Shown here: positions 27,092 through 32,194 of the stretch, piece after piece
How positions within the stretch are numbered: position 1 is the stretch's first letter
How the letters are laid out: the number at the start of each line of letters is the position of its first letter
NCBI RefSeq assembly: GCF_001296045.1
Contig: NZ_LJHS01000005.1
Coordinates: 558,001-622,000 of the forward strand
DNA from: Rhizobium sp. AAP43
GTDB taxonomy: Bacteria; Pseudomonadota; Alphaproteobacteria; Rhizobiales; Rhizobiaceae
Direction: 5' to 3'
DNA length: 64,000 nt
The notes under the pieces: model-generated
Told to the model about the DNA's origin: nothing
Databases searched by the model: none
What the model saw: only the letters and a program-made list of their open reading frames with translations
Made by a program: the position numbers and the translations under genes

Positions 27092-27481
27092 TCATTCCTT
27101 GTTCTGCATGTGGTGGGCAAGTTTTTCGATGGCCGGCAAGATGAGCTCGCGCAGCTTCGGATGGTGCACCGTTTCTTCCAGTGCCTGACGGAAGCATAGC
27201 AGCCACTCGTCGCGCTCAGCCGGACCGATCTCCGCCACGAAATGCCGGCGCCTCAGCATAGGGTGGCCGCGCTTTTCCATGTAGATCGGGGGACCACCCA
27301 GATAGCCGGTCATGTAGTCGTAGAATTTCTCCGCGCTGCCGGAGAGGTCCGGTGGATGGATCGCGCGGCATCGTGCGGCTTCCGGCAGTGTGTCCATCAA
27401 CTCGTAAAAGCGGTCGGTGAGAGCCTTCACCGTCGCGTCGCCGCCGATGGCCTGGTAAAGGGTAATCGTTTCTTCGCTCAT
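27092..27481 (-). CDS. Group II truncated haemoglobin
   Basis: 129 residues from ATG 27481 (GGAA upstream; ATG 27487 also possible). It starts with TLYQAIGGDATVKALTDRFY, followed by FYDYMTGYLGGPPIYMEKRG, HPMLRRRHF with the proximal His, and RDEWLLCFRQALEE with the group II Trp at G8. Group II truncated globins bind O2 and take part in NO or peroxide detoxification. This fits loosely with the DNR-like regulator and NnrU elsewhere in the window, but no direct link is shown. Confidence 0.9.
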   Translation of the reverse strand: MSEETITLYQAIGGDATVKALTDRFYELMDTLPEAARCRAIHPPDLSGSAEKFYDYMTGYLGGPPIYMEKRGHPMLRRRHFVAEIGPAERDEWLLCFRQALEETVHHPKLRELILPAIEKLAHHMQNKE

Positions 27482-27574
27482 GCTCATTTCCGCGCTGTGA
27501 TCGGGCTTCTTTGGAGCCAACCGAGCTTTCGCGCAATCGGTCATTTTCCCAATGTGGCAATCCGGCGCATGCAT

Positions 27575-28304
27575 GGGCGATGTCAGCGTGTGCCCACCAA
27601 GCCGCGCAGCATCAGGCCGATGGCGGCCAGCTAACGTGTGGCACGCTTACCGATTGCTTTCGGCAACTGCGCCCTATGCAGCAAGACGGCACTCACCTCG
27701 GCGTTACTGTTCCACCCAAAATTGGTTGCAGTTGAAATCATCCCATTATGGGTCATGTGCTCGGCTTTGCATGTCCTCGCGTCTCCGATCAAAGTTGCTG
27801 CGGCTCGCATCGAGCTATGATCCGGATTTCATCACGAATTCTGAGATTTGACCTTGTCTGAACAATAAAGGAAACGGCGACGCCTCGGCGATTGGCCCAT
27901 TCTGAACCGTTAATGTCATATGAAGACTGCCCCAGCGGTTTCCTATTATTGGCGATTAAGAAAAAATTATCAAATCAGGCCCTAGATTGCAGCAGATACG
28001 AGTGTCGCCTGCTGCTTCGAACGCGGAGGGTGACAGAGACCGGATGGCGGATTGGCTGACGGTCAGGTGAGGGGAGCGGGACCTGGTCCCGCATGCATGA
28101 TGCGTTCCCGGTTGGGCTCGAGCGAGCCATGTCTTTCTTTCAAAGCTGTGTCCAGCAGTGGGACTGTGCGGCAGAGAGTGCCCCGGTCTGAGCCGTTTAC
28201 AGGTGCAGGATGCGCCTGAGCCCGTGAAGGTCCTTCGGGATCGCACGCGGCGCACGGCAGGAGAGTCAATCGAAAATTGGTCAACGCTAAAAGGCGGCTT
28301 CCTA
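27575..28304. other. Long intergenic leader upstream of the repeat protein
   Basis: No supported gene is present in this 730-bp stretch; its open frames lack ribosome sites and family features. The region near 27950-27985 is AT-rich. The promoter and leader of the octapeptide-repeat gene should lie here. I could not pick a convincing -35/-10 pair. Confidence 0.45.
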
Positions 28305-31300
28305 ATGACGACGATCATTCCCTCGCTCTCGGTCAACCAGATCAAGGCCATGTCCACCACCGCGATCACAAATCTCGTTGAGGAGGATGTGAAGGCGTTG
28401 TCCGCCGCACAGATCGCCGTCCTCAGCGCGAACCAGATCGGTGCTTTGGAGGCTGATGTTGAGTTTCTCGATGAAACTCAGCTGAAGGCAATTTCCGTAA
28501 CCGGCATCAAGGGTCTGACGACCACACAGATCGCTGCCATCGATGCGGGCAAGATCGACGATCTGACGACCAAGCAGATCGCAGCTCTCACGGCGACCCA
28601 GGTCGGCGCGCTCGACACCGATCAGTTCTCCGCACTCACCGGCGACCAGATCGGCGCGATGACCGCAGCCCAGGTCGCAGTTTTCGATGCCACTGACATT
28701 GCAGACCTCGATACGGGTGAAGTCGCCAAGATCAGCGCCAAGGTTATCGGCGCGCTGTCTAATGCTGCGATTCAGGCCCTGAGCGAAGACCAGATCGGCG
28801 AACTGACCGTCGCTCAGATCGCCGGTATGAAGACGACCCAGATTGCCGCCTTGACGGCCGACCAGCTCGGTGCATTCACCGCCGATCAGATGGGCGCGCT
28901 GACCTCTGCCCAGGTCAAGGTGCTGTCGACCACCCAGATCGCTGGCCTTGATGCAACTCAGATCGGCGCCATTGCCACGAAGGCTGTGGCTGGTCTGACT
29001 GCTGCCCAGATCACCGGCATGGACGAAACCCAGACAGCCGGCTTTACGGAAGCTCAGGTTGCTGCCCTGAGCGCCGCCCAGGTTGCCGGCTTCGAGGCCG
29101 CCGACATCGCTGATATGGATGCCGCGGTTGTCTCGAAGATCTCCGCCAAGGCCATCAGCGGTCTCACCAACGATGCCGTTGCTGCTCTCACCGATGACCA
29201 GATCGACCTCTTGAGCGCTGCCCAGATCGGCGCAATGAAGACAACCCAGATCGCCGTCCTGACGACGACCCAGCTCGAAGGCCTGTCGACCGTCCAGATG
29301 GGGGGCCTGTCGGCCGTCCAGGTCAAGGCGCTGACCACGACACAGATCGGTGCGCTTGATGGTGCGCAGCTTGCCGCCATCAGCCCCAAGGCTGTCACCG
29401 GCCTGACCGCTGACCAGATCGGCGCCCTGACGACCGACCAGAGCGACGCACTCCTGCCCACCCAGATCGCTGCACTCACAGCTGTCCAGATTGCCGGCTT
29501 CGAAGACGCGAATATTGCGACCTTCAGCGTCGACCAGATCGCCGCTATCAGCCCGAAGTCGATCACCGGCCTGTCCGATGCTGCCATCGCAGCACTTGAT
29601 GACGATCAGCTGGGCGCCCTGACCGCAACGCAGATTGCAGCCATGAAGCCCACCCAGGTGGCTGCCCTGACGACTGACCAGGTCAGCAAGCTGACCGACG
29701 ACCAGCTCGGTGCCCTGACCGCTCTGCAGATCAAGGCGATGTCCGTCGCTCAGATTCAGGCGATCCCGGATACGCAGATCGACAAGATCAACGTCAAGTC
29801 CATTGCCGGCCTTACGGCAGCGCAGATCACCGGTATGAGCACTGATCAGACCGGCGCGTTTTCGACGGCCCAGGTCGCGGCTCTCTCCGCCCTTCAGGTT
29901 GCAGGCCTCGAGTCGGGCGACATCGACGCATTCAGCCCGGACCAGATCGCGGCGATCAGTGTCAAGGCGATCGCATCTGTGGTCGATGCAGGCATCGCGG
30001 TCCTCGACCAGGACCAGGTCGAAGCCCTGACGGCCAAGCAGATCGCAGCGATGAAGACGACGCAGATCGCGGCCTTCACCACGACGCAGATCCCCTTCCT
30101 GTCGGAAGAGCAGATCGGTGCCCTTTCCGCCGTTCAGGTCAAGGCTCTGACCGATGATCAACTCGGTGCCATGACCGCCGACCAGATCGGTGCGATTTCG
30201 GTCAAGTCGATCAGCGGCTTGACGGCTGCCCAGATCGGCGTGCTTGCGCCAGAGATTGTTGCGGGCTTTACGGAAGACCAGCTGGGTGCACTTTCGGCAG
30301 CACAGGCGGCCGGCTTCGAAGCTGCCGATGTTGACGAATTGAGTGCTGACAAAATCGGTGCCATCAGCTCGAAGGCTGTGAGCGGTCTTTCCACCGCATT
30401 CATCGCCGATCTTGACGGTGCTCAGGTCGCGGCCCTCAAGGTGGCTCAGATTGCCGCTCTGAAGGCAGACCAGATCGCGGCGCTCGCCGTCGACACGATT
30501 GCTTCGCTGACGAGCGACCAGCTGGGCGCCTTGAGCGCGGCTCAGGTCGGTGCCTTCACCGATGCACAGCTTGCGGAACTCACGGATGCTCAGATCGGCG
30601 AACTCAGCACCAAGGGTGTGGCCGGCTTGACTGCCGCCCAGCTTGGAACTTTGGAAGATGACCAGCTCAGCGGTCTGACGGAAGCGCAGGTTGGTGCACT
30701 CAGCAGCGCACAGGTTGCCGCTTTGACGACAGACGATATTGCTCTGTTCTCGGATGCAGAAGTGGGCGCCATCAGCGCCAAGGCAATCGCTTCGCTTGAT
30801 CCGGCGGTGATCACGACCCTGACCGCAGGGCAGCTCGCAGAACTCAAGCCGACTCAGATCGCGGCCATGACCGCGGCACAGGTTGCAGCCTTCGATCCGG
30901 ACAACATCGATCTTCTCACCACGGATCAGATCGGCGCGCTGACTTCGACCCAGGTTGCAGCTTTGACAAGCCCGCAGATCCAGGCTCTGACGAATGACCA
31001 GGTCGGCGCCATCAGCGTCAAGGCCATTCCGGGTCTCACGGCGGCACAGGTAGACACGTTCAATGAGAACATTGAAGGCCTGACTGCTACGCAGTTCGCG
31101 GCATTCTCATCCGCTCAGGTCGGTGCCTTGATGGCCGATGACCTCGACTCGATCTTGCCTGCGGAAATTGCCGCGATCAGCCCCAAGGCGATCACTGGCA
31201 TGGACGATCTGGTTATCGCGGCCCTTGACGAGGACCAGGTAAAGGCTCTGACCCCCGGTCAGATCGGCGCGATGACGGCAGCGCAGGTTGGCAACTTCAC

Positions 31301-32141
31301 CACGACGCAGCTGGAGTTCTTCGACACTGCCCAGATGGGGGCCCTGACCTCGGCCCAGATCGCCGGTATGTCGACGACGCAGACGGACGCATTTGATGCC
31401 ACACAGATCGCGGCTATCAGCGTCAAGGCGGTAACCGGCCTCACGGCCGCCCAGATCACGGCCTGGGGTGATGACCAGACCGCTGCCCTCACGGAACCGC
31501 AGATCGCAGCCCTGAGTACGGCTCAGGTCGGAGCGCTTGAAGTGGCGGATATCGAGGGCTTCAGTGACGCGCAGGTGACTGCGATCAGCGCCAAGGCGAT
31601 CGGTGGCCTTGCTACGGGAGCTGTTGCTGCTCTTGTTCAGTCGCAGGTCGAGGCGCTGACGACTGCCCAGGTCGCTGCCCTTACGGGCACGCAGGCTGCC
31701 GCATTGACGGAAGATCAGGTTGGTTACCTCAGCGCGGATCAGGTCGGTGTCCTCACGGCAACCCAGATCAAGGCCATGTCGACAGACCAGATCGCGGCAA
31801 TCGGCGTCGCCAATATCCCGAGCCTCAGCAAGACCGCCGTTGCGGCCTTGTCGGCAGCCCAGATTACGGCCATGTCGGCTGACCAGATCGAGGCCTTCAC
31901 CGCAGATCAGACGGCCAGCCTGACGGCAGCCCAGATCGATGCGATGGAAGACGAAGACCTGGAAAAGTTCGACACGGACGATATGGCGGCAATCTCCAAC
32001 TCCGCGCTTGCCGGCCTGTCCGTCAATGACATCACCAGCGTGCTCGTGCAGGCCCAGCTTGAGGCCCTGACGGATCCGCAGGTCCAGGCGCTCAGCCAGG
32101 AGCAGGCCGAAGCTCTCATCACGGCCTATCAGAACTTCTGA
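28305..32141 (+). CDS. Giant octapeptide-repeat protein (QIxALTxx), function unknown
   Basis: 1278 residues from ATG 28305 with AAGGCGG upstream; the 49 codons before it are not repeat-like. Nearly the whole chain is tandem octads of the form Gln-(Ile/Val)-x-(Ala/Gly)-(Leu/Phe/Met)-(Thr/Ser)-x-(Asp/Thr/Ala). Octads are grouped in a 17-unit (136-residue) supercycle in which units 6 and 13 end AISxK, units 7 and 14 begin (A/S)IxGL, and unit 17 reads QIAAMKTT. About seven full supercycles run from roughly residue 180 to 1130, with less regular ends. There is no Cys, His or Arg, one Trp, and many Asp and Glu. No signal peptide or membrane segment is visible. Similar TAQIAAL-type repeats occur in unannotated large proteobacterial proteins; a secreted or surface role is only a guess. 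Confidence 0.85.
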   Translation: MTTIIPSLSVNQIKAMSTTAITNLVEEDVKALSAAQIAVLSANQIGALEADVEFLDETQLKAISVTGIKGLTTTQIAAIDAGKIDDLTTKQIAALTATQVGALDTDQFSALTGDQIGAMTAAQVAVFDATDIADLDTGEVAKISAKVIGALSNAAIQALSEDQIGELTVAQIAGMKTTQIAALTADQLGAFTADQMGALTSAQVKVLSTTQIAGLDATQIGAIATKAVAGLTAAQITGMDETQTAGFTEAQVAALSAAQVAGFEAADIADMDAAVVSKISAKAISGLTNDAVAALTDDQIDLLSAAQIGAMKTTQIAVLTTTQLEGLSTVQMGGLSAVQVKALTTTQIGALDGAQLAAISPKAVTGLTADQIGALTTDQSDALLPTQIAALTAVQIAGFEDANIATFSVDQIAAISPKSITGLSDAAIAALDDDQLGALTATQIAAMKPTQVAALTTDQVSKLTDDQLGALTALQIKAMSVAQIQAIPDTQIDKINVKSIAGLTAAQITGMSTDQTGAFSTAQVAALSALQVAGLESGDIDAFSPDQIAAISVKAIASVVDAGIAVLDQDQVEALTAKQIAAMKTTQIAAFTTTQIPFLSEEQIGALSAVQVKALTDDQLGAMTADQIGAISVKSISGLTAAQIGVLAPEIVAGFTEDQLGALSAAQAAGFEAADVDELSADKIGAISSKAVSGLSTAFIADLDGAQVAALKVAQIAALKADQIAALAVDTIASLTSDQLGALSAAQVGAFTDAQLAELTDAQIGELSTKGVAGLTAAQLGTLEDDQLSGLTEAQVGALSSAQVAALTTDDIALFSDAEVGAISAKAIASLDPAVITTLTAGQLAELKPTQIAAMTAAQVAAFDPDNIDLLTTDQIGALTSTQVAALTSPQIQALTNDQVGAISVKAIPGLTAAQVDTFNENIEGLTATQFAAFSSAQVGALMADDLDSILPAEIAAISPKAITGMDDLVIAALDEDQVKALTPGQIGAMTAAQVGNFTTTQLEFFDTAQMGALTSAQIAGMSTTQTDAFDATQIAAISVKAVTGLTAAQITAWGDDQTAALTEPQIAALSTAQVGALEVADIEGFSDAQVTAISAKAIGGLATGAVAALVQSQVEALTTAQVAALTGTQAAALTEDQVGYLSADQVGVLTATQIKAMSTDQIAAIGVANIPSLSKTAVAALSAAQITAMSADQIEAFTADQTASLTAAQIDAMEDEDLEKFDTDDMAAISNSALAGLSVNDITSVLVQAQLEALTDPQVQALSQEQAEALITAYQNF

Positions 32142-32166
32142 TCGAGCCCTGATCACCATCCACGTG

Positions 32167-32194
32167 AACGGCGCCCCATGTGGGCGCCGTTTTC
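32167..32194 (+). terminator. Terminator of the repeat-protein gene
   Basis: AACGGCGCCC (32167-32176) pairs with GGGCGCCGTT (32182-32191) around CATGT, followed by TTCCTTT. It lies 26 bp after the stop codon. Confidence 0.85.

Follow-up and report, generated by a model that had tools for sequence, protein, structure and literature searches.

A 17-octad supercycle in an ALTTAQ-repeat protein of Rhizobium sp. AAP43 as a probable pattern of faces on a predicted short-helix solenoid

Why should a protein that is built from octapeptides repeat at a second level as well, with a cycle of just 17 octads? This question is raised by a gene on contig NZ_LJHS01000005.1 of Rhizobium sp. AAP43 (RefSeq assembly GCF_001296045.1), which lies in a stretch of 64,000 nucleotides (positions 558,001 to 622,000 of the forward strand) that was analysed as a whole and is referred to as the window; positions given below count from its first letter. 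Octads of the form L-T-x-x-Q-I/V-x-x cover the encoded chain of 1278 residues from end to end. An earlier, sequence-only reading of this DNA had described both repeat levels and had found them unexplained by any domain, which no longer applies, as the protein matches the Pfam family PF20080, "ALTTAQ repeat" (E value 3.7e-167, 51 stretches), with 542 bits, far above the curated gathering cut-off of 26.4. The family shares the octad over the whole chain, but its model comprises 38 positions and therefore has no room for a supercycle of 136 residues. To our knowledge, no turn number, charge stripe or partner enzyme of glycosyltransferase family GT41 has been stated for PF20080.

Self-comparison of the protein yielded residue identities of 0.391 at lag 136, 0.346 at lag 272 and 0.289 at lag 8, the highest value in 200 shuffles being 0.138 (lags up to 299). 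At the level of octads, the excess at lag 17 amounted to 0.163 as compared to a mean maximum of 0.021 in 30 octad shuffles (lags up to 45). These values bear out the octad protein with a 136-residue, that is 17-octad, second-level repeat that had been read from the sequence. The motif IS-x-K occurs 12 times at a spacing that alternates between 80 and 56 residues (10 and 7 octads), except for a distance of 136 where one copy has diverged and a single distance of 55 across a lost residue. Segmentation gave 161 octads, four of them irregular, namely the two chain ends and two true seven-residue octads. The lost residue had been noted before and its octad (residues 916-922) is indeed short; however, two octads are short rather than one, the second comprising residues 45-51. 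The proposed closing unit QIAAMKTT is kept loosely, MKTT being found three times and AM[KT]x seven times. The composition is rich in Ala and Thr, with 42 Lys and 144 Asp plus Glu, and the absence of Cys, His and Arg was confirmed by counting.

To model two supercycles (residues 284-555), an alignment of the protein's own supercycles served as input for AlphaFold2; overlapping units slid out of register in MAFFT, and non-overlapping blocks were used instead. Over its 34 octads, the model has 32 helices that are 4-6 residues long, one further helix of three residues and no strand. A model of residues 692-1278 likewise shows mostly one short helix per octad and no strand, with two longer helices (13 and 14 residues) at and after the seven-residue octad and further long ones towards the C-terminus; confidence is lower over the final 60 residues or so. 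The ALTTAQ protein is thus predicted to be a tightly wound chain with roughly one very short helix per octad, and the prediction supports the earlier proposal of such a chain with Thr directly ahead of each helix. The repeat might instead be of low complexity or disordered and lack a fold, or it might form a β-type solenoid akin to leucine-rich repeats, in line with its Ala/Thr-rich composition and with weak Pfam matches below cut-off to LRR_EndoS and Bflower_2. However, both modelled parts were predicted as ordered rather than disordered, with mean predicted local distance difference test (pLDDT) scores of 96 and 91 and short helices in nearly every octad, and assignment by DSSP gave zero strand in both AlphaFold2 models, where a leucine-rich repeat would have a β strand per LxxLxL unit. 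We consider this explanation very improbable.

What, then, could the number 17 mean? We propose that the ALTTAQ protein would fold as one long solenoid, in which each octad is one very short helix capped by Thr or Ser and a turn takes about 3.4 octads (27 residues). Seventeen octads would then be almost exactly five turns, and 7 and 10 octads about two and three turns, so that octads 17 units apart would face the same side of the rod and the supercycle would represent a pattern of rod faces. This pattern may be kept by selection and copied via duplications that each span complete turns. Charge would distinguish the faces of the window protein, a Lys ridge lying across from a wide acidic side along some 47 turns; if the rise per turn is assumed to be ~1 nm, the rod would be ~45 nm long. 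Such a rod could be exported to serve as a fibre, as discussed below. Taken as a whole, this is the best explanation we can offer and we regard it as probable. If it is right, the odd number of 17 × 8 turns into a structural rule of 27 residues per turn, which predicts the repeat lengths that are open to duplication in evolution and may serve as a design rule for short-helix solenoids.

The angular period was derived from 50 proteins, comprising the window protein and 49 proteins from 46 loci. Among the 48 loci scanned, L041 had no stretch and L056 (a 249-residue stretch in a frame of 3525 residues) was dropped before counting; the proteins of L049 and L051 are cut off by the locus ends. The strongest repeat lags vary among these proteins and are 17; 24; 31; 14 and 28; or 10, 27 and 44 octads. 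The 17-octad cycle dominates within the window's own family, and the proteins of L050-L053 and L055 display a short, even-numbered lag pattern that starts at 4 instead of a clear supercycle. When the cycles are counted as whole turns, one turn takes 17/5 = 3.40, 24/7 = 3.43, 31/9 = 3.44 or 14/4 = 3.50 octads. The pooled spectrum of similarity over lag peaks at 3.42 octads with a power of 0.25, as compared to at most 0.056 among 100 permuted pools; lesser peaks (8.53 and 2.44 octads) lie near 17/2 and 17/7 and may represent aliased harmonics. The fit of the lag set {7,10,14,17,24,27,31,44} to one turn was equalled by 0.2% of random sets.

A second line of evidence comes from charge, in a test that makes no use of repeat identity. 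In the window protein, net charge per octad has a period of 3.394 octads (power 35.3; 95% level of shuffles 7.9), and in its mean charge profile over 17 units the five-turn component holds 0.68 of the power over eight components. Across the family, 49 of the 50 proteins exceed their shuffle level, and the period falls within 3.3-3.55 octads in 42 of them with a median of 3.398. Mean charge power reaches 18.9 at 3.39 octads, followed by a peak of 2.9 at 2.44 (47 proteins of at least 100 octads). At the level of sequence, the period, the charge stripe and their recurrence across the family are evident; that 3.4 octads correspond to a physical turn of the chain is what we infer from them. When residues of the window protein are binned by azimuth, 19 of the 42 Lys fall into one 45-degree bin that holds 4 acidic residues, and 99 of the 144 acidic residues occupy three adjacent bins; as the bins use the period fitted to the same charges, they describe the stripe rather than test it. 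The idea that the 17-unit period sets the Lys-bearing octads at a fixed place is supported by this sector opposite the acidic side, and many of these octads would form a basic ridge facing away from the acidic face. In the proteins of L050-L053 and L055, which come from more distant genomes of the same phylum (family f240; the frame in L050 has 4816 residues), the charge period is still 3.38-3.42 octads.

Covariation between octads was assessed in 25 proteins, of which 23 contributed, with 199 of 221 supercycle windows having enough flanking sequence. Coupling was positive at lags 3, 4 and 7 and not at lags 1, 2, 5 and 6, and the contrast of lags 3 and 4 with lags 1, 2, 5 and 6 stayed positive in every one of 60 bootstraps over proteins. 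Coupling at 3 and 4 octads points to the neighbours that are expected one turn away at 3.4 octads per turn. These data also bear on a simpler account, in which the cycle is purely inherited: an ancestral block of 136 residues was duplicated, and the number 17 has no structural reason. The 17-octad cycle dominates the window's own family of homologous proteins, so that its recurrence there is not independent, and cycle starts are often 17, 27 or 34 units apart, as if built from blocks of 7 and 10 units. However, inheritance gives no reason to expect coupling at lags 3 and 4, neither of which is a duplication length in the proteins analysed, the cycles of other proteins (24, 31 and 14) give about the same angular period, and one component dominates the charge profile of the window protein. 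We therefore judge pure inheritance to be improbable, albeit less so than disorder or a β-type solenoid.

Several observations weigh against a turn of 3.4 octads. The value comes from sequence statistics and not from the coordinates of the models, and the homologues are not independent of each other. The narrower lag set {14,17,24,27,31} is equalled by 5% of random sets, and the period of the single best lag lies within 3.3-3.55 in just 24 of 50 proteins, or in 20 of 50 once multiples of the dominant lag are removed. The best charge period is outside this range in 8 of 50 proteins, that is 2.45 in L013, 2.44-2.45 in three pieces from L016, 5.55 in L015, 4.80 in L043, 12.0 in L054 and 2.39 in L036, the last being the one protein below its shuffle level. 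The effects in the covariation analysis are small (standard deviation of the null 0.02-0.05 per lag; ~1.4 standard deviations at lag 4), coupling at lag 10, which would be three turns, is not positive, and the two core positions couple at lag 1 (0.22) rather than at 3 or 4, the signal residing in non-core positions. Finally, a crude torsion-sampling model favoured ~2.3 octads per turn with 12% right-handed; among its 355 accepted samples, 27 had 3.0-3.25 and one had 3.25-3.5 octads per turn. As the linker angles were assumptions, we put little weight on this model, although it still counts against the proposed turn.

Is such a chain known from other proteins? Among the best 50 of 446 Foldseek matches of the model, mesothelin ranks first (E value 2.7e-6, TM-score 0.30, 14% identity). 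According to the accessible part of PMC10035497, mesothelin is a right-handed solenoid whose 24 short helices form nine layers, the repeats being 27-37 residues long; like the fold proposed for ALTTAQ, it is built of short helices and takes some 27 residues or more for a turn, but it differs by irregular helices, disulphides and a glycosylphosphatidylinositol anchor, and that part of the source states no octad repeat. The likeness amounts to a resemblance rather than clear membership. VIA-align lists the helical solenoids of the ARM/HEAT type (importin alpha, beta-catenin) with Z scores of up to 7.5, within the noise that the tool states for repeats; these share the helical solenoid, but have repeats of 30-40 residues with three helices (PMC10035497, same part) rather than octads. 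By sequence, the window protein matches the PDB chain 9zem, "HeliScrew4", over 109 residues (E value 1.9e-15). This chain is a solved protein of the octad-repeat type with similar octads; however, it comprises 120 residues and is known here by its molecule name and alignment alone. It is absent from the best 50 of the 446 Foldseek matches and from the 50 VIA-align matches listed, which is no proof of a new fold. No description of the 136-residue supercycle was found in the open-access literature; the motif ALTTAQ and the name HeliScrew appear in no paper of the open-access collection searched, and the listed occurrences of the string PF20080 concern, judged by title, other subjects.

Where the rod would act is suggested by genes next to its relatives. 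A gene for a HlyD-type adaptor adjoins in 4 of 49 loci (L013, L016, L043 and L054); in L013, a PrtD-type exporter is encoded by the neighbouring ATP-binding cassette (ABC) gene and a TolC-like protein by the third gene. Type I secretion genes next to relatives speak for an exported rod, which, we infer, would leave the cell without a signal peptide and probably by a type I system. It may then act as a stiff fibre at the surface or in the matrix, and its charged side could bind a partner, a polysaccharide or other copies of the rod. A scaffold or storage protein that stays in the cytoplasm would agree with the fact that no signal peptide is evident by eye in the window protein and that no export gene is present among the ten scanned neighbours of its gene, the latter also being a point against export. 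Against a cytoplasmic role stand the adaptor genes and the L013 cluster just described, five type I HlyD homologues over cut-off elsewhere in the window's genome, the lack of Cys and the acidic composition; thus, we hold this alternative to be unlikely, but to have a better chance than pure inheritance of the cycle. RTX-type, glycine-rich Ca-binding nonapeptides were not among the three Pfam families that match up to an E value of 10.

A further recurrent neighbour points to a possible modification. The neighbour survey covered 49 loci, that is 48 relatives, selected for repeat match and diversity ahead of any inspection of their context, plus the window. A homologous gene of GT41 type (resembling O-GlcNAc transferase, OGT), 610-847 codons long, lies within 4.5 kb in 23 of the 49 loci, the copy in L043 having an extra piece of 255 residues. 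The gap is at most 250 bp (ORFs as called, determined by hand) in 14 of these 23 loci, 13 of them with both genes on the same strand. All six members of the cluster that were scanned match Glyco_transf_41 with tetratricopeptide repeats (TPRs), and PF13844 confirms GT41 at 13 distinct loci (six scanned and eight coinciding by place, with L034 in both); the remaining loci rest on BLAST clustering and, for L010, L012, L015 and L016, also on TPR or glycosyltransferase annotation. When one member was compared with the PDB, its best matches were human OGT and XcOGT. Among 151 genomes of the window's own family, taken as the same set for both counts, ALTTAQ and GT41 are found together more often than chance would predict (14 with both, 9 with ALTTAQ only, 23 with GT41 only and 105 with neither; P 5e-5). 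Both families are also present in the control genome of Caulobacter vibrioides. The window's genome (99.96% complete) has no match to PF13844.

The presence of the enzyme is associated with the make-up of octad column 5, the second T of L-T-T-A-Q (columns numbered from 0, starting with I/V). In the own-family group, which takes in three Rhizobium plasmid proteins, the Ser/Thr fraction of this column is 0.765 in GT41-linked proteins (n=10) as compared to 0.31 in unlinked ones (n=13; P 0.001); in the rest it is 0.73 (n=16) versus 0.48 (n=11; P 0.0008), phylogeny being handled by the split into two groups alone. The five other columns tested show no such difference in the own-family group, nor do columns 4, 6 and 7 in either group; column 2 is lower in the linked proteins of the rest (0.09 vs 0.18, P 0.019). 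In the window protein, 25% of column 5 is Ser/Thr and 17% Asp/Glu, the latter being at most 4% in the 10 GT41-linked own-family proteins. As its genome has no GT41 match, the window protein would seem to be a highly charged variant that lacks glycosylation. A second ALTTAQ copy (L009, 1424 residues as first read) is present in the same genome, likewise with a 136-residue cycle; its column 5 is 31% Ser/Thr and just 3% Asp/Glu, and a replacement of glycans by charge is thus not general.

The GT41 neighbours, the co-occurrence in genomes and the enrichment of Ser/Thr in column 5 suggest that ALTTAQ rods are glycoproteins, modified by GT41 in the cytoplasm at column 5 and subsequently exported, the window protein being a member whose host lacks the enzyme. 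We lean moderately towards this reading, although the window protein is not directly explained by it because its genome has no GT41 match, L020 has a column-5 Ser/Thr fraction of 0.66 although GT41 was not found in its genome, L023 has a fraction of 0.24 despite GT41, and enzyme and rod could share a pathway in another way. In a more specific form, ALTTAQ proteins would be dedicated native substrates of GT41, with one column-5 acceptor per octad on a rod of 3.4 octads per turn, so that a regular fibre with a glycan coat would leave the cell by type I secretion, and column 5 would be freed where the enzyme is missing; to this we give an even chance. Comparable systems are HMW1C, a soluble glycosyltransferase whose secreted surface substrate, the HMW1 adhesin, is glycosylated in the cytoplasm before export, and FlmG, a cytoplasmic glycosyltransferase for flagellin, likewise a secreted surface protein, which has TPRs and a GT-B domain according to the accessible part of PMC7591256. 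By contrast, the acceptors, sugar and export of ALTTAQ proteins are putative, and the window's genome lacks a match to the enzyme. For the OGT of T. terrenum, the accessible part of PMC4683255 reports that no activity on protein substrates was detected in the authors' in vitro assays. ALTTAQ rods could be concrete candidates for the targets of OGT-like GT41 enzymes in bacteria.

The relatives come from plasmid records and from searches of whole genomes, and their distribution is patchy. Genomes with ALTTAQ numbered 23 among 151 at the level of the family, 11 among 199 for the order, 8 among 385 for the class and 29 among 398 for the phylum, with the window's own genome counted in every case; a single-protein search of genome contigs for related loci yielded no confirmed locus. 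In Pseudomonas asturiensis plasmid pCC1524 (L016:4924-12215), the ALTTAQ gene is split into three annotated ORFs, as if broken, and is followed by a TPR/GT41-type gene and type I secretion genes. In these two Pseudomonas members, about 260 C-terminal residues (L013:15288-16064 and L016:11418-12212) are not octads and match no family above cut-off, with weak EF-hand-like matches. A weak relative is gp51 of Mycobacterium phage Squirty (L017:2965-4035; two records), which has octad-like periodicity at lags of 24 and 8 residues; it was the sole phage relative found and was excluded from later counts. The label "heme utilization protein" of one relative received no support in this analysis. NCBIfam gave no match to the window protein, and the PHROGs matches are families of unknown function. 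Features of the window gene are compiled in Table 1.

Table 1. Coordinates of the ALTTAQ gene, its modelled parts and flanking elements in the window
Feature	Position	Strand	Basis or remark
Possible ribosome-binding site AGGCGG upstream of ATG	28292..28297	+	Sequence inspection
ALTTAQ-repeat (PF20080) protein gene, 1278 aa, ~160 octads, 17-octad supercycle	28305..32141	+	ATG at 28305, stop at 32141
Seven-residue octad, residues 45-51	28437..28457	+	Octad segmentation
Two supercycles, residues 284-555	29154..29969	+	AlphaFold2: mean pLDDT 96.2, predicted TM-score (pTM) 0.87
Residues 692-1278	30378..32138	+	AlphaFold2: mean pLDDT 90.7, pTM 0.73
Seven-residue octad, residues 916-922 (lost residue noted earlier)	31050..31070	+	Octad segmentation
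Intrinsic-terminator-like hairpin after the gene, 11-pair stem	32166..32192	+	Pattern match alone

A promoter scan returned one site with 0.9 expected. Eight of ten neighbouring ORFs scanned match ordinary families, namely a bacterial globin, DUF423, an ABC protein, an HD-domain protein, a dihydrodipicolinate-synthase-family enzyme, an amidohydrolase and two redox enzymes; the globin gene lies upstream on the opposite strand (27092-27574, minus). Among the surveyed loci, one recurrent neighbour group (6 loci) yielded chemotaxis receptors for both members scanned, and the single scanned member of another (8 loci) is a sensor kinase; the two groups were taken as generic. Long antisense open frames mirror the repeat of the window gene (28302-30161, minus, 619 aa; 31107-32159, minus, 350 aa) and shorter ones lie opposite the paralogue gene; these frames are probably by-products of the codon pattern.

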